Of a stretch of 32,471 nucleotides of DNA, positions 10,704-18,123 are shown in pieces. The DNA comes from a virus. The translations under genes and the position numbers were made by a program. The stretch is from positions 1 through 32,471 of IMG/VR virus record IMGVR_UViG_3300020156_000462; one strand, given 5' to 3'. The notes under the pieces were generated by a model. The model was not told the DNA's origin. It did not search any database and saw only the letters and a list, made by a program, of their open reading frames with translations. Positions within the stretch are counted from its first letter, which is position 1. Each line of letters opens with the position of its first letter.

Positions 10704-13700
10704 TTACCGGCGGGCCGCCGCTTCGGTGGTCGCACGCAGCACGCCGCGGGTCGCGTCGGCGACGTCGGACAGCCCGCGATGCGTGCCGTCCCCGGCCGCT
10801 GCGGAGATGCGGATCACGGCGTCCAGGCGGTCGCGGATCTCGCGCAGCAGGGCGCGTGTCTCCGGGTCGCCGCTGGCGCGGGGCAGGGGGACGACGTTGC
10901 CGCCGTGCGGGTCGTTTGCGGCCCGCAGCATGCCGACCGTCTGCTCGGCGCTGAAGTACCGGGCAGGCCCCGTCACCTCCAGTTCCGGGCCGCGCTCGCC
11001 GACGAGGCGCAGGCCGCCGGTGTGCAGGCCGCCATCGGCGAAAGCCGGGGTGAACCCGTACAGCCGCGCGAGTTCGCGAGCCGCGATCCGCCGCGGGTCG
11101 TCGGCGGCCATGTTGTGGAACGGGATGCCCCAGGTGCCCTTTCCATCGCCGAACACAGGGTTGGCGCCCAGGGCTACCAACATCGCGTTCAGGTCCGGAT
11201 TGGACCCCAGGGACGCCCCGGCGGGGACCTTCGTTCGCGCCCACGCCTCGAACTCGCCCGCCGCGAACCCGCCGCTATAGCCGGGAAGCGCCGCCGCGAT
11301 CAACCGGTTGACGGCACCCCGCCCGCCGCTGCCGTAGTCCCGGAAATCACCCTTGGCGAGGGTGTCGCGCAGGGCGGCCTCCAGGTCGGACAGGCCGTCG
11401 CTGGTGGTGCCGATGAGCCGGTCGAGCTTGATGACCGTCTCGGCCGCAAGCCGGGCCTGCCGTTCGGCGACGCTCTCGGTCGAGGCCAGGATCCCGCTGA
11501 CCGTCTCGAAGTCGGCGAAGTACTGCGCCGAGGAGACGTAGTAGTCCCGGCTGGCCTCGAGCGCCGCCTGCGACAGCGCGGGCAGCTTCTCCATCGCCTT
11601 GGCCGCCGCAGCGGCGTCCGAGCCCTTGGCGGCGTTGGCGGCCTCGAACAGCTGCCGCATGGCCTCGGTACGGCGGGCCTCGCCCGTCAGCGGCGACAGG
11701 TTCTTGTCGACGAGCAGGGACGCACGGGCGCTGGCAAGGCTTTCCCCGGCGGCCTTGAAGGTGTCGACGAGCGCCTGCGCCGTCTGGCGGGCGTTCTGGA
11801 GGACCTGCGCCCAGGTCTGCGCGATGGACTGCTCGGCCTGCTGCGCCGCCTGGGCGAGGGTGTCGGCGCCGCGGCTGTAGACCTCCACGAGGTATTGCAG
11901 GATCTGGCCGTAGTCCTCGGCCGAGATGCGCCCGTTGCGGAGGCGTTGGTTGATCTCGGCCTGCGCCGCGGTCAGGTCCGCCAGCGTCGCCCGGCCCGCC
12001 TCGGCCTTGCTCAGGAAGGCGTCCAGGCCCTCAACGAACTTCGGGAACTTGGCCGGGTCATACCCCAGGTTCGACAGGACGTCGGAGCCGGTCAGCGTGA
12101 AGTTCGAGTTGGCGGCTTGGTTGATGAGGTTGTTTCCGCGCCGGACGACGTCGGCGACCTGCCGGTCGTACTCCTCGACCGCGTTCCGGGTGACGCGGGT
12201 CAGGAGGTCGGCCTGCTCGGCAGCGGTGTAGCCGAGTTCGGTCAGCACCGGCTTGAAGCTGGCGAAATTCAACTCGACCTGCTTCGTGACCGCCGCCAGC
12301 CCATGCAACGCCTCGGCGTCTTTGCCCAGGCCGAGCATCGCCTCGACGCTGTTCCTCAGCGCCGGGGTCAACTCCTCCTTGGTCGCGATGCCGAGGGCGA
12401 CGATGCGGTCGCGGAACTCGACGACCTGCTCCTTGGCCTGCTTGCCGAGCTCCTCGGCCTCCTTGAACATTTCGCGGACCTGGGACGCGACGGCGTCGCC
12501 GCCCGTCTTCATCGCGTCGAACCACGGGCGGAACGACTTCGCGACGTCCAGGTCCTTGGCGAACTCTTCCGCCGTGGTGGACTTGCTGTTCCGGATGGCG
12601 GTGAGGACGTCGGCGTTGCCGGACAGGCTGCCCGCCTTTTCCAGGTGCTTGAGGACGTCGACCGCGATCTGCTGCGGGTCCTCGGACTTGGAGACCTCGA
12701 CGCGCCCCTTCTCCCAGCCGTTGAGGACGGTCACATGGCCCTTTTCCTCGTGGTACTCGGTGCCGATCCACAGCTCCTTGGGACGGGTCAGACCGGTGGA
12801 CCCGGTGAAGGCGTCGAGCAGCGTCTTGATGTTGTCGACGCGCTGGCGCAGGGCGTTGTCGTCGACGCCGTTCTCGGCCCCTTGGCCGCGGTCGATGACC
12901 TCGCCCTTGTCGTCGAAGCGCACCCAGGCGCCGCCGTACTGCGTGGCCTTCTTCTGGGTGCCGAGCATGCCCGCAATCGCGCCGACGACGGCACCGATGA
13001 CGGTGCCGATGCCGGGCAGCATCATCGTGCCGTAGAGGGCGCCCGCACCGGCGCCATGCAGCGCGCCGACGGCCTTGGAATTGGCCTTGGTGCCCCAGTA
13101 GCCGCCCCAGGCGTAGCCCAGGCCCGCGGACCCCAGACCAACGCCGCCCATGGCGCCCAGCCCAGCACCGCCGCCCGCCGCACCGGCGCCGCTGCCGGAG
13201 GCCGCACCCGCACCGCCGCTCGCGGCGATGCCGCCCGCCTCGCCGCCGACGATGAAGCCGTTGACCGTCTGACCGGCCAAGTACGAACCGCCCGCGCCCA
13301 TGCCGCCGGTGACCGCAGCCGCACCGCTGCCGCCGAGGCCGAGCCAGGACGCTGCCGAGTTCCACAGGGACTCGCCGTAGCTGCCGGTCCAGACCTTGTC
13401 GAGCAGCCACGTCCCGGCCTTGTTGACGGCCCAATTCGACATGTTGCCCATCAGGGAGGAGCCGCCAGCCGGGGCGCCCGCGACGGCGCCGCCGCTGCCG
13501 CCGGTGCCGCCGAAGATGGGCAGGTCGAACAGGGTCGGGCTGTTGGTGCCGAAAAGGACGTTCTTCAGCGGCGCCGCGACCGCCATCTTGAGCAGGTCGG
13601 CGGCGATGGACGAGAGGATCCCCTTGACCACGTTGCCGAAATTGACGGCCTCGCCCTTGCCGGACACGAAGACGTCGACCAGGCTGTCGCCCAGGCGGTC

Positions 13701-15965
13701 GAACGCCTTCTCCAGCGAACCCGTCAGCGTCGCCCAGGCGGATTCCTGCCGCTTGATGTCCTCGGTCCGCTTGGCGTTTTCGCCCGCCGTGCGGACGGCG
13801 AGGTCGTAGCGCGCCTTTTCCGCCTCGCTGAGCTTCTCGTATTCGATGCCCTGGGCGCGCAGGCCCTCGACGATCTCGGCCTGCGCCTCGGCGACGGCGC
13901 GCACGTCCTCCGGGGCGCCGATCAGGGTGGCGCGCTGGCCGAGGCGACGGCGGGCGGCGTCCTGCGTCTCGACGAGCCGGTTGAGGGTGTCCAGCTTGGC
14001 GGCGTCGGACCCGGCCTTGGACAGGTCGTCATAGCGGGCGGCGAGGTCGCGCAGCTGCTTCGCCAGTTCAACGGCACCCTGCGCCTCGGCGGCCTGGGCG
14101 GCGGCAAGCGCGGTCGAGGTCGCCTTGGCGACCTGCGCCTGCCGCTCCGCTTCCAGCCGGGCCGCCGTGCCCTGCGCCGCCGCCTCGGCGATCCGCCGCT
14201 GGGCGGCGACGTCCTGCTCCATCACGGCAACGGACTGCGACAGGGCGGCGGCTTCCTGGGCGGCGCGCTCGGCGACCAGTTGGCGGGTGCGGGCCTGGAC
14301 GTCGACCGCCTGCGTCATCGCCTCGTTGAGCGCCTGCTGGCGGGCCTCGGCCTCGATGGTGGCGGCGGCCGACGTCTGCCACGCCTGGGCGAGCGCCGAG
14401 GCGCCGCGCGTGGCGAGGTCCGTCTGCGCCGCCGACTGCGCGACCGCCGCCGTCTGGCTGGCGATGACGCCCGTCCGGGCCGCCTCAGCCTGGGCGTTCC
14501 GCTCGGCCGTGGTCGTCGCCGTGCCGAGCAGGGAGATGCGCTCAGCCTCGGCGGCCTTCTCGCGCTGCGACGCGGCGTCGAACCGGCCCGCGTACCGCTT
14601 CTCGAGGTCGGCCTGCTGCTGGCGCTTGTACGTCTCCAGGTCGAGCCCGGCCGGGACCTTCCGCAGGTCGTCCAGCCTGTTCTGCAGCCGCTCGACCGCC
14701 TGCTCGCCCGACTTGGCGGCGTCACCCATGCCGGGGCCGAGGCCGCGCCGCAGCTTGGCGAGCTCGGACTCCGTGCCGCGGATGGTGGTGCCCAGGCCGT
14801 CGTACTTGGTGGCGAGGTCGACGGCGGCGCGGCTGGCGGCGTTGTTGGCGGCGGCGATGCCCTGGGTCGCGGCGAAGCGGCTGCGCTCGCGCTGCTCCTC
14901 GCGCAGGGCGACGAGCTCGGCCTCGGCGTTCTCGGCGGCCTTGGTGGACAGGACGCCGCCGAACCGGCGCTGGTCTTTCCGGCGCGCGCGCAGGACCTCC
15001 TCGGCGGCGGCGATCCGCTCCTCCAGGGACGGGCCGTTGACGGCGCGGTTGATGGCCTTGCCGACGGCGTCGGCGGCGTTGCTGGCGCCGCGGGCGACGG
15101 CGTCCCAGGCGCGCGCCCAGATGGACGTCTCCTCGGCCGCACCCTTCACCCGCTGGCCGAGCGCCTCGACGAGGACGCGCTGCGCCTCGGCGGCGCGGCC
15201 CGATTCCGTCAGGCGGCGGATGTGGTCGAGCATCACGCCGGACAGCAGATTGAACCTGCTCGCGAGCTCGTCGGCGCCCTTGGCCGGGTCCTTGAGCAGC
15301 CCGGCCAGTTCCTTGGTCGCCTCGGCCGCGTCCTGCCCGGTGAGGGTCGCGTAGTCCTTGGTGATGGTGACCAGCCGCGACATGGTCTCGGGGCCGACTT
15401 TGGCGACCTTGGCGTATTCGTTCGCCATGGCGCGGGCGGCGGCGACCGACACCCGCCCGGCCTCGGCCGATGCCTCGGCCAGCGCCGACATTTGGCTGGC
15501 CGTCTGGCCGAGCGTGCCGCCCATCAACTTGACGGTGCGGTCGAACTCGCGCACCGACGAGGCGTGCCGCTCGTACAGGGCGAACGCCGCGCCGACGGCG
15601 GCCAGCGGCAGGGCGACGGCCTTGATGCTGGCGGGGATGGCGGCGAACGTCTGCCGCAGGCCACCAAAGATTTGTGTGATTTGAGGGCCCTGCTGCACCA
15701 GCACCGTAAAGACGGACTGGCCGCTCGCAAGCTGGGTGAAGATGTCGTTCAACTGCGGCTGCAACTGCTGGAGTTGCTGCCGCGTGGCGCCGACGGAGTC
15801 CGCGTATTCCCGCTGCGCCGAGGCCGCACCCTTGGCCTTGCGGGCGGCGTCCTCGATCTTCCTGAGGGCCGCCGCCCCCTCCGCGCCGAACGCGCGCAGC
15901 GCTGCCGCCGCCGCGTCGGCGTCCTTGACGCCGAGGCGGATGACGAAGGACTTTTCGGTCGTCAT
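10704..15965 (-). CDS. Tail tape measure protein
   Basis: The 1753-aa protein sets siphovirus tail length and spans the tail lumen. It starts MTTEKSFVIRLGVKDADAAAAALR. The motif LNDIFTQLASGQSVFTVLVQQGPQITQIFGG at about 72-102 is typical of lambda-type tape measures, followed by long Ala/Glu-rich helical stretches, a Gly/Ala-rich hydrophobic segment at about 800-1000, and the usual C-terminal FADGGLHTGGLRLVGERGPE signature near 1640. The start at 15965 overlaps the stop of the chaperone extension by 4 nt (ATGA); AAGGA lies 9 nt upstream. At about 0.15 nm per residue the tail would be about 260 nm if the protein is not trimmed. Confidence 0.92.
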   Translation of the reverse strand: MTTEKSFVIRLGVKDADAAAAALRAFGAEGAAALRKIEDAARKAKGAASAQREYADSVGATRQQLQQLQPQLNDIFTQLASGQSVFTVLVQQGPQITQIFGGLRQTFAAIPASIKAVALPLAAVGAAFALYERHASSVREFDRTVKLMGGTLGQTASQMSALAEASAEAGRVSVAAARAMANEYAKVAKVGPETMSRLVTITKDYATLTGQDAAEATKELAGLLKDPAKGADELASRFNLLSGVMLDHIRRLTESGRAAEAQRVLVEALGQRVKGAAEETSIWARAWDAVARGASNAADAVGKAINRAVNGPSLEERIAAAEEVLRARRKDQRRFGGVLSTKAAENAEAELVALREEQRERSRFAATQGIAAANNAASRAAVDLATKYDGLGTTIRGTESELAKLRRGLGPGMGDAAKSGEQAVERLQNRLDDLRKVPAGLDLETYKRQQQADLEKRYAGRFDAASQREKAAEAERISLLGTATTTAERNAQAEAARTGVIASQTAAVAQSAAQTDLATRGASALAQAWQTSAAATIEAEARQQALNEAMTQAVDVQARTRQLVAERAAQEAAALSQSVAVMEQDVAAQRRIAEAAAQGTAARLEAERQAQVAKATSTALAAAQAAEAQGAVELAKQLRDLAARYDDLSKAGSDAAKLDTLNRLVETQDAARRRLGQRATLIGAPEDVRAVAEAQAEIVEGLRAQGIEYEKLSEAEKARYDLAVRTAGENAKRTEDIKRQESAWATLTGSLEKAFDRLGDSLVDVFVSGKGEAVNFGNVVKGILSSIAADLLKMAVAAPLKNVLFGTNSPTLFDLPIFGGTGGSGGAVAGAPAGGSSLMGNMSNWAVNKAGTWLLDKVWTGSYGESLWNSAASWLGLGGSGAAAVTGGMGAGGSYLAGQTVNGFIVGGEAGGIAASGGAGAASGSGAGAAGGGAGLGAMGGVGLGSAGLGYAWGGYWGTKANSKAVGALHGAGAGALYGTMMLPGIGTVIGAVVGAIAGMLGTQKKATQYGGAWVRFDDKGEVIDRGQGAENGVDDNALRQRVDNIKTLLDAFTGSTGLTRPKELWIGTEYHEEKGHVTVLNGWEKGRVEVSKSEDPQQIAVDVLKHLEKAGSLSGNADVLTAIRNSKSTTAEEFAKDLDVAKSFRPWFDAMKTGGDAVASQVREMFKEAEELGKQAKEQVVEFRDRIVALGIATKEELTPALRNSVEAMLGLGKDAEALHGLAAVTKQVELNFASFKPVLTELGYTAAEQADLLTRVTRNAVEEYDRQVADVVRRGNNLINQAANSNFTLTGSDVLSNLGYDPAKFPKFVEGLDAFLSKAEAGRATLADLTAAQAEINQRLRNGRISAEDYGQILQYLVEVYSRGADTLAQAAQQAEQSIAQTWAQVLQNARQTAQALVDTFKAAGESLASARASLLVDKNLSPLTGEARRTEAMRQLFEAANAAKGSDAAAAAKAMEKLPALSQAALEASRDYYVSSAQYFADFETVSGILASTESVAERQARLAAETVIKLDRLIGTTSDGLSDLEAALRDTLAKGDFRDYGSGGRGAVNRLIAAALPGYSGGFAAGEFEAWARTKVPAGASLGSNPDLNAMLVALGANPVFGDGKGTWGIPFHNMAADDPRRIAARELARLYGFTPAFADGGLHTGGLRLVGERGPELEVTGPARYFSAEQTVGMLRAANDPHGGNVVPLPRASGDPETRALLREIRDRLDAVIRISAAAGDGTHRGLSDVADATRGVLRATTEAAARR

Positions 15966-16294
15966 CGGGGGTCGTCCTTGCGCTTCGGCTGGAGGGCCGA
16001 CCACGCGCTTTCCATAATGCGTAGCGCCGCCATCACGCACGCGGGCTGCTCGGCCGAACCGCCGCCGAACGGCAGGGGGCCGCGCCCCATGCCGCCGCCG
16101 TGCCACTCGGCCCAGATGGAAAGGAGGGCGTGGTCGTCCGCGTCGAGGAGGTGCCTGGGGTGCACGTCCAGGGTCAGTCCGAGTTCCTCGGACTGCCAGA
16201 CGTCGTCGGTCAGCGGGCTTTCCGGGGTCGCGTCCTCGCCGCCGGCGAACGAGGCGCTGCGCTCGCTCCACCAGACGGCGATCCGGAGTTTCCC
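15962..16294 (-). CDS. Tail assembly chaperone -1 frameshift extension (lambda T-like part of G-T)
   Basis: This reading frame is -1 relative to the 242-aa chaperone and stays open upstream of the slippery site, but it becomes protein-like only from it. Read after the slip it gives 108 residues, from LRIAVWWSERSASFAGG through SIWAEWHGGGMGRGPLPFGGG to the stop. Upstream of the heptamer the same frame is an Arg/Pro-rich shadow. The fusion product would be 217 + 108 = 325 aa, against 242 aa without the shift. The extension could also be read as a free-standing 67-aa ORF from a GTG at 16165, but that has no obvious ribosome binding site. Its stop overlaps the tape-measure ATG (ATGA), as the lambda T region abuts H. 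Confidence 0.82.
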   Translation of the reverse strand, partial: GKLRIAVWWSERSASFAGGEDATPESPLTDDVWQSEELGLTLDVHPRHLLDADDHALLSIWAEWHGGGMGRGPLPFGGGSAEQPACVMAALRIMESAWSALQPKRKDDPR

Positions 16295-16938
16295 GCTTCG
16301 GTCTCCGTCGGGCGCAGCAGGCTCTCGACGAACGCGGCGATGCCGGGGAAGGCCTCGCGCGGGATGCGGGCGAGCGTGGCGTCGTCCGCCCCGCGCAGGC
16401 CGCGCCGGACGTCGCCGGGCAGGTTCTCCCAGCCGACCAGGAACAGCCGGGCCGCCTCGATGCCGCGCAGCAGCGGGGCAACCTCGTTGTCCGCCAGCAT
16501 CGCCCGATAGCGCGGGTAGTGCTGGCGGACGATGCCCTCCAGTTCGCCCATGCGCGGGTTGCCCAGCGCCGACGCGAATCGAACAGACCAGTCGGCGAGA
16601 TCCTCGTCGGCGGCGCAGTCCTTGCTCAGGGCGGCGCGCTCGGCGAGCAACTCGGCGAGCGCGGCGCGGTGCGCGTCGATCTCGCCGACGATGGCGTCGC
16701 GCTCCTCGGCGTTCTCGTCGCCCGGCAGGATGGCGCGCACGCCCTCGGCCATGGCGACGAGGAACTCCGGGTAGCTCCAGGACTTCGCCCCGGCGGCGAC
16801 GCAGGCCCGCTCATAGGCCGCCGCGTCGAACACGCTCGGCGTCTTGAGCAGGAAGGCGACGCGCTTGTCCTCCGGGATGTGGTCTTGACCAGGCGGCACG
16901 TAGCGCGCCGCCTCGCCGGGGTGCAGCAGCTTAGCCAT
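16210..16938 (-). CDS. Tail assembly chaperone (lambda gpG-like)
   Basis: The 242-aa protein (MAKLLHPGEAARYVPPGQDH) lies between the tail tube and tape measure, where siphoviruses place the chaperone that coats the tape measure during tail assembly. It is mostly helical, and its last 25 residues are low-complexity Ser/Gly/Pro/Arg, which suggests that the normal stop is a read-through remnant of the frameshift arrangement. The slippery heptamer sits 25 codons before the stop. The gene begins 15 bp after the tail tube stop. Confidence 0.8.
   Translation of the reverse strand: MAKLLHPGEAARYVPPGQDHIPEDKRVAFLLKTPSVFDAAAYERACVAAGAKSWSYPEFLVAMAEGVRAILPGDENAEERDAIVGEIDAHRAALAELLAERAALSKDCAADEDLADWSVRFASALGNPRMGELEGIVRQHYPRYRAMLADNEVAPLLRGIEAARLFLVGWENLPGDVRRGLRGADDATLARIPREAFPGIAAFVESLLRPTETEAGNSGSPSGGASAAPRSPAARTRPRKAR
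16288..16294 (-). promoter_or_regulatory. Programmed -1 ribosomal frameshift site (G GGA AAC)
   Basis: In the frame of the 242-aa gene the codons are GCG GGA AAC, giving the canonical X XXY YYZ heptamer G GGA AAC. The lambda G/G-T site is GGGAAAG, so only the last base differs. A -1 slip enters the 108-codon frame ending at 15962. Sequence just downstream is GC-rich and could fold, but I did not define a specific stimulatory structure. Confidence 0.8.
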
Positions 16939-16953
16939 GCGTGCACCCCCCGA

Positions 16954-18123
16954 TTAGTAGAAGCACACGAAGACGCCGCCGTCGGGCGTCGGGGCCGAGA
17001 ACGGAATCCCCTCGTGGGCGAAACCCTGGACGTCCTCGTTCTCCTGCCCGGTGTAGACGATGGACGGGAAGAAGATGGACACCCGGTTCCCCGCGGTGTT
17101 GCCCCAGCGCAGCCACAGCTTGCGGGACGTGCCGTTCAGGAAGTCGGTCCAGACGTCGCGGACGCTGAGCAGGTCCAGCGGCGGATTGATGCGCCCGGTG
17201 ATCTTGCGCTTGACGATGCCCGCGACGTCGATCCCGTAGGTGTCGGACGGGTCGTCGGCCTGGGCGACTTGGTTCCCCAGGTCAAAGGAGAACTGGTTGA
17301 ACTTGGTCGCCGTGCCGTCGAGCGAGCAGTCCATCGCCATGACGGGGCGGAAGGTCGTCGCGTCCAGGGTCGGCAGGGACGGCTTGGCGACGTCGGACGG
17401 CGTCACGAACTTGCCCTGATAGGTGAACTGCACCGTCGGGCGACCGCGCACCGGCAACGTGAACTGCGCGTTGGCGCAGGCGCCCAGCAGCTTGCGCAGG
17501 CGGGAGTTGCCGCTGTTGCGGTGCTGGTAGTCGTACAGCGACACCGTCTTCAGCGACGAGGACGCGGGGACGTAGAGCGCGTTGGCGTGGATGGTGTAGG
17601 TCGAGGTCGCGTCGGGCGGCGTCGTCCAGGCCGGGAACACGGTCGCGACCTTGGTCGCGCCGACGTAATCGGCGACGAGGCGGGTCTGCCCGGAGCCGGT
17701 GCCGCCGGTGATGGCGATCACCATGCCCGTGTAGGCGTCATTGACCGCGCTCGCGCCCGCGGCCAGCGTCACCGTGGAGGCGGCGCCCGCCTGGGCGGTG
17801 CCGGTGACGTCGGCGGCGGTCAGCGTCTCGGCCAGCCCGGACGCGCGCAGCGACGGGCCGAACTCCGGGGCCTCGCCGCCGGTGCCCGGCCCCTTGATGG
17901 CAACGGAGCAGGTGAAGCCCGCGCCGCCGCCGCCGGGGACGTCCTGCCCCGCGTCGAGAGCGCCGGTGACCTCGTCGTCGTTGGTGATGGCCTGCGGGCC
18001 GCCGTTCCAGGTCGGCGAAATGCACTTCATGGCGTCGGTTGCGACGTCGGGCGCGGCGTCGCTGCCGGGCGTGGTCTCGACCTTGACGAGGAGGGTGCGG
18101 TCCTGGGTGCGGTAGTTGCTCAT
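16954..18123 (-). CDS. Major tail (tube) protein
   Basis: The 389-aa protein (MSNYRTQDRTLLVKVETTPG) matches the general form of siphovirus tail tube proteins: an N-terminal VKVETTPGSDAAP segment that starts the tube domain, Gly-rich loops, and a late region with tube-like beta strands (FDLGNQVAQADDPSDTYGIDVAGIVKRKITGRI). An inserted domain around 100-190 (TLAAGASAVNDAYTGMVIAITGGTGSGQTRLV) resembles a surface-exposed phage decoration-type repeat. It is followed by the chaperone and tape measure genes, as expected. GAGGAG lies about 9 nt before the ATG and contains the end of the previous gene. Confidence 0.83.
   Translation of the reverse strand: MSNYRTQDRTLLVKVETTPGSDAAPDVATDAMKCISPTWNGGPQAITNDDEVTGALDAGQDVPGGGGAGFTCSVAIKGPGTGGEAPEFGPSLRASGLAETLTAADVTGTAQAGAASTVTLAAGASAVNDAYTGMVIAITGGTGSGQTRLVADYVGATKVATVFPAWTTPPDATSTYTIHANALYVPASSSLKTVSLYDYQHRNSGNSRLRKLLGACANAQFTLPVRGRPTVQFTYQGKFVTPSDVAKPSLPTLDATTFRPVMAMDCSLDGTATKFNQFSFDLGNQVAQADDPSDTYGIDVAGIVKRKITGRINPPLDLLSVRDVWTDFLNGTSRKLWLRWGNTAGNRVSIFFPSIVYTGQENEDVQGFAHEGIPFSAPTPDGGVFVCFY

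Follow-up and report, generated by a model that had tools for sequence, protein, structure and literature searches.

In phage lambda, the slippery site of the G/GT frameshift is GGGAAAG and the G protein is about 140 amino acids long. We describe here a gene of similar layout in a stretch of viral DNA of 32,471 nucleotides (the window, i.e. the whole stretch that was analysed; positions 1 to 32,471 of the IMG/VR virus record IMGVR_UViG_3300020156_000462): a putative tail assembly chaperone gene that occupies two frames and is very probably read through a lambda G/GT-type −1 programmed frameshift. The heptamer of the window is GGGAAAC in place of the GGGAAAG of lambda, and its G part, 217 residues to the slip, is longer than lambda G. 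Long-tailed phages widely conserve −1 frameshifting in their g-t genes even where sequence similarity is low, and lambda G/GT yields an abundant short product and a rare long product, as would be expected here (PMC5009743). Unlike lambda G/GT, the window proteins match none of the chaperone families in the searched libraries.

Such sites are described in other viruses. Gp18/gp19 of Burkholderia phage KL1 have GGGAAAC and a predicted stem-loop within 35 bases downstream, as in the window (PMC3483164); in KL1, however, the 0-frame stop comes right after the heptamer and an extra gene precedes the tape measure gene, whereas the 0 frame of the window goes 25 codons further. Between them, the related Caulobacter phages phiCbK (AAAAAAC) and Colossus (GGGAAAC) have the same two heptamers in their chaperones (PMC3556154), and the haloarchaeal viruses HCTV-1 (G_GGA_AAC) and HCTV-2 (A_AAA_AAC) show the same pair of sites in their g-t genes (PMC5009743). 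The Caulobacter phages are larger than the phage of the window and the haloarchaeal viruses differ from it in having archaeal hosts; a tblastn search of a phage collection with both parts of the window protein and of its relative L002 found no homologue. The mechanism, the swapping of GGGAAAC and AAAAAAC between phages and the 3′ stem-loops were all known before; what is new here is a protein family, not represented in Pfam, PHROGs or NCBIfam, that would use this known mechanism.

The two-frame gene and its coding phase

The features of the gene are listed below.

16210..16938, minus strand: 0-frame tail assembly chaperone G-like open reading frame (ORF), 242 amino acids, modelled by AlphaFold2 with a predicted local distance difference test score (pLDDT) of 82
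16303..16306, minus strand: internal Shine–Dalgarno-like GGAG, 8 nt upstream of the heptamer, judged by its energy of pairing to the anti-Shine–Dalgarno sequence (suggestive)
16288..16294, minus strand: slippery heptamer G GGA AAC, aligned with the heptamers of the relatives
16236..16281, minus strand: predicted stimulatory stem-loop, from 6 nt 3′ of the heptamer; minimum free energy (MFE) −30.6 kcal/mol
15962..16288, minus strand: −1-frame T-like extension, 108 codons plus stop, predicted to be read only after frameshift; the −1 frame is conserved in five loci

The 0-frame ORF runs from 16938 to 16210 on the minus strand and consists of 217 residues before the slip and a 25-residue 0-frame tail. 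The heptamer, at 16294–16288, directly follows a GCG codon and is in the phase G GGA AAC. Past it, the −1 frame stays open through 108 codons (LRIAVWW...KDDPR) up to a TGA at 15964–15962; this TGA lies inside an ATGA whose ATG (15965–15963) starts the tape measure gene, so that stop and start overlap. The predicted products are thus the 242-residue protein and a fusion of 217 + 108 = 325 residues. An earlier sequence-only reading had claimed the in-frame heptamer in a 242-residue ORF, the extension reaching the tape measure start and the two product sizes, and all of these are borne out by the coordinates and the translation lengths; its description of the −1 frame upstream of the heptamer as Arg/Pro-rich is also correct.

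That reading had further placed the change of frame at the slippery site, and the base composition agrees. Before the slip, the 0 frame has GC fractions of 0.76/0.49/0.94 at codon positions 1, 2 and 3; past the slip, the −1 frame has 0.72/0.54/0.91, against 0.68/0.96/0.64 in the 0-frame tail. From the third-position values, the switch of coding phase falls at the heptamer.

Taken alone, the heptamer was not accepted as proof of a frameshift: shuffles give a probability of 0.11–0.18 for an in-frame X XXY YYZ (with Y being A or T) in such an ORF, i.e. 11–18% of such ORFs have one by chance, and the 19 candidate ORFs (7,677 codons) contain four. The coincidence of the heptamer with the phase switch, together with its retention in relatives, takes it beyond chance. 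GGGAAAC occurs only once on the minus strand of the window. An in-frame GGGAAAG at 11746 (minus strand) in the tape measure gene and an in-frame GGGTTTC at 17026 (minus strand) in the tail protein gene are probably chance occurrences.

Conservation in relatives and RNA signals

Profile and neighbour-based scans gave a chaperone family of five members: the window and the loci L002, L007, L021 and L024. L002 lies on the same contig as L003, L005, L006 and L023, and L007 on the same contig as L022. L024, from an alphaproteobacterial metagenome-assembled genome (MAG), was the one locus given by the second genome profile scan; the first genome scan, with a two-row profile, gave no match, and a search of six genomes of the order of the L024 MAG found no copy besides that of this MAG. 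A slippery heptamer is present at the same aligned site in all five members, as GGGAAAC in the window and L002 and as AAAAAAC in L007, L021 and L024, and right after it each member has a homologous −1 extension beginning LRIA or LRLA. The sequence-only reading would have been refuted by relatives that lack the heptamer although both their frames are intact; none of the family members has lost it, and we take this conservation to settle the interpretation in favour of the frameshift. Between members Gly ahead of Asn is exchanged for Lys, and the codon in front of this residue changes its wobble base accordingly (GCG to GCA or GTA), matching the triplet. This joint change preserves the slipperiness. 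The codons used at the site are rare in these GC-rich genes: AAA is one of 19 Lys codons in L021, and GCA accounts for two of 91 Ala codons in L007. The alignments also indicate that the T extension is evolving as a coding sequence in the −1 frame, with 38–63% residue identity over aligned codons and most changes falling at position 3 in most pairs. The 0-frame tail past the slip is rich in Ser, Pro and Ala.

Some local features of the relatives were recorded alongside. In one MAG, the N- and C-terminal halves of the chaperone each stand at the end of a different contig (L028:1398-1742 and L024:1-339), which is consistent with a contig break within the gene. A strong GC-rich hairpin lies immediately 3′ of the T stop in L021 (L021:4322-4355), where, unlike in the window, the tape measure gene begins ∼500 nt later. 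In L007, a repeat-like stretch (CCGCCCCCACCCCAGCCCTC...; L007:4570-4640) lies between the T stop and the tape measure gene, and a similar one is found ahead of the chaperone gene.

In eight loci, namely the five family members, two L009-type loci and L004, the last from an unrelated family, RNA structure was scanned in 50-nt segments at 39 positions between −235 and +335 relative to the heptamer. The segment at +5 is the most structured of the 39 (mean z of −2.53, mean MFE of −25.7 kcal/mol), and no other position has a mean z below −1.7. In the window, L002, L007 and L021 the stem starts exactly 6 nt past the heptamer; in the others the distance is 4–8 nt. Compared with synonymous-codon shuffles, which leave the T protein unchanged, the structure is in excess (Fisher p of 8e-5 over the eight loci and 0.002 over the family, both approximate because the loci are related), although the hairpins of L007 (P = 0.19) and L018 (P of about 0.5) are not individually unusual. 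The covariation score of the hairpin was reached by none of 500 shuffles nor by any slid version; over five rows, this is support and not proof. A search of the region against Rfam gave matches far below the gathering scores.

Upstream of the heptamer, at ∼8 nt, all five members have GAGG, GGAG or GGAGG. The GGAG of the window has an anti-Shine–Dalgarno energy of −6.6 kcal/mol, which 6.8% of control positions match; among gene positions, the motif ranks in the top 6.8% in the window, 11% in L007, 0.5% in L002, <0.2% in L021 and 21% in L024. The motif is only suggestive as a stimulator because it is partly dictated by the conserved peptide. The sequence-only reading had correctly singled out the heptamer as the signal but had missed both this motif and the hairpin.

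We infer the following scheme. Most ribosomes would read G GGA AAC in frame and make the 242-residue protein, of which the last 25 residues would be a disordered tail, while a minority would slip back one base on GGGAAAC and translate 108 more codons to give the 325-residue G-T fusion. The pause for the slip would be provided by the hairpin 6 nt downstream and perhaps also by the GGAG 8 nt upstream. On the lambda model, G would coat the tape measure protein, and recruiting the tail tube protein would fall to the T domain.

Predicted proteins and gene neighbourhood

The AlphaFold2 model of G is mostly confident and mostly helical to residue 215; from residue 216, at the slip, to the end the pLDDT is <50, which predicts disorder. 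T is modelled as a separate, confident domain (pLDDT 84.9). The tail assembly chaperone of Arthrobacter phage Molivia appeared as a weak fold match (E = 0.39). VIA-align of the T model against 46 chains returned a single row, 7qfz_C (Z of 2.3, r.m.s.d. of 3.8, 51 residues aligned), which was judged not to be meaningful.

Several observations weigh against a G/GT-type frameshift here. Neither part matches Pfam or PHROGs, and NCBIfam gave one insignificant match only; no convincing fold match was found for G in the PDB and BFVD or for T in the PDB. L024 alone shows no excess of hairpin structure over synonymous shuffles (P = 0.52). Finally, in Escherichia coli a second codon AAC makes a weaker −1 shift site than AAG, A_AAA_AAG being shiftier than A_AAA_AAC (PMC5009743), and the efficiency at the present site may be low. 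Since there is no family or convincing fold match, the chaperone role is assigned from the position and architecture of the gene. The name 'chaperone' given in the sequence-only reading likewise comes from gene order, while the frameshift part of that reading is supported.

The virus record spans 32 kb, is possibly a fragment and has terminase, portal and major head genes that match PHROGs; its closest terminase match in a known phage has 42% identity. The chaperone gene is flanked by the following genes.

16954..18123, minus strand: gene for a 389-residue protein, occupying the major tail (tube) protein position ahead of the chaperone; matches PHROG 290 (tail, 'minor tail protein') with E = 5.5e-16
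10704..15965, minus strand: tape measure protein, 1753 residues; matches PHROG 24 (tail length tape measure protein) with E = 1.6e-48

Homologues of the upstream tail protein gene come before the chaperone in L007–L019, and the order tail protein, two-frame gene, tape measure is also found in L007, L009–L015, L018 and L019. In L009–L015 and L017–L019 a short chaperone that ends in GCGGGAAAC-stop and has a −1 extension comes next after the tail protein gene. In L009 this is a recognized chaperone-type protein (PHROG 313) with a T part that matches DUF1799 (PF08809; E = 4.7e-17), and the presence of such chaperones at the same place identifies this as the chaperone slot. The window T itself has no match to DUF1799, and hhalign of the T family against the L009 T aligned only 18 C-terminal columns (E = 0.042).

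The chaperone of L004, from an unrelated family, ends in KPTETEAGN-stop at the same GGGAAAC. The peptide (T/A)E(T/A)EAGN recurs just ahead of GGGAAAC in several seemingly unrelated chaperones (L004:1304-1329, L030, L042 and L047; L032–L079; L038, L045 and L051), although these were found by searching for that peptide and are not an unbiased count. It is conceivable, but we think it rather unlikely, that the junction is a portable recoding module: a (P)TETEAGN coding stretch, GGGAAAC and a hairpin, common to otherwise unrelated chaperones (the window and L004 families, with EAEAGN before the heptamer in further families), that would move or re-evolve as one unit including the nascent peptide or its mRNA.

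At the other end of T, the start codon of the tape measure gene lies in an 8 bp hairpin (GATGACGA/TCGTCATC; 15939–15966, minus strand) that overlaps the T stop (z of −2.85 for a 42-nt fold). If ribosomes completing T open this hairpin, tape measure synthesis could be coupled to the frameshift. As a conserved coupling device the hairpin was rejected, as it is not seen in the relatives.

Alternative explanations and meaning

In principle, an assembly or sequencing error, with a base lost or added, might have split one continuous gene into the two frames. The window stems from a single virus record that offers no reads to examine; however, five independent contigs have two frames that break at one and the same aligned site, and this layout also occurs in other chaperone families (L009–L019 and L004), which makes such an error extremely unlikely. 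A layout of two separate genes, with T translated from its own start and no frameshift, would find a candidate in the 67-residue GTG-start ORF at 16165–15962 in the ORF list. The homology of the T extension among the five members nevertheless begins at T residue 1, whereas the first −1-frame start after the slip in the window is T codon 42, which has no strong ribosome-binding site, and the 174 open codons of the −1 frame before the slip contain no ATG, GTG or TTG. In the relatives, the first such start after the slip falls at T codon 95 (L007), 60 (L002), 67 (L021) and 42 (L024). With T conserved from its first residue and no usable start from which it could be made alone, entry by frameshift is required, as the sequence-only reading had supposed, and we regard separate genes as very improbable.

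Slippage of the RNA polymerase rather than of the ribosome could draw on the run of six A in three relatives, but the GGGAAAC of the window and L002 has no homopolymer longer than three, and the hairpin stands at a spacing typical of ribosomal stimulators; we therefore consider transcriptional slippage to be very unlikely as well. Finally, both frames could be read and the proteins could be something other than tail assembly chaperones, as the missing family and fold matches would allow. The place of the gene between a tail protein and the tape measure, its two-product layout and the recognized chaperone-type proteins in the same place in L009 speak against this, and we judge it improbable. 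The preferred interpretation thus remains a ribosomal −1 frameshift in a tail assembly chaperone gene.

This interpretation would give a chaperone family not listed in the libraries a complete and conserved recoding signal, comprising the heptamer, a spaced hairpin and possibly an internal Shine–Dalgarno-like motif, and the 325-residue product is one that automatic annotation would probably overlook. Within one homologous family, selection is seen to keep the slipperiness of the site and not the amino acid that it encodes.
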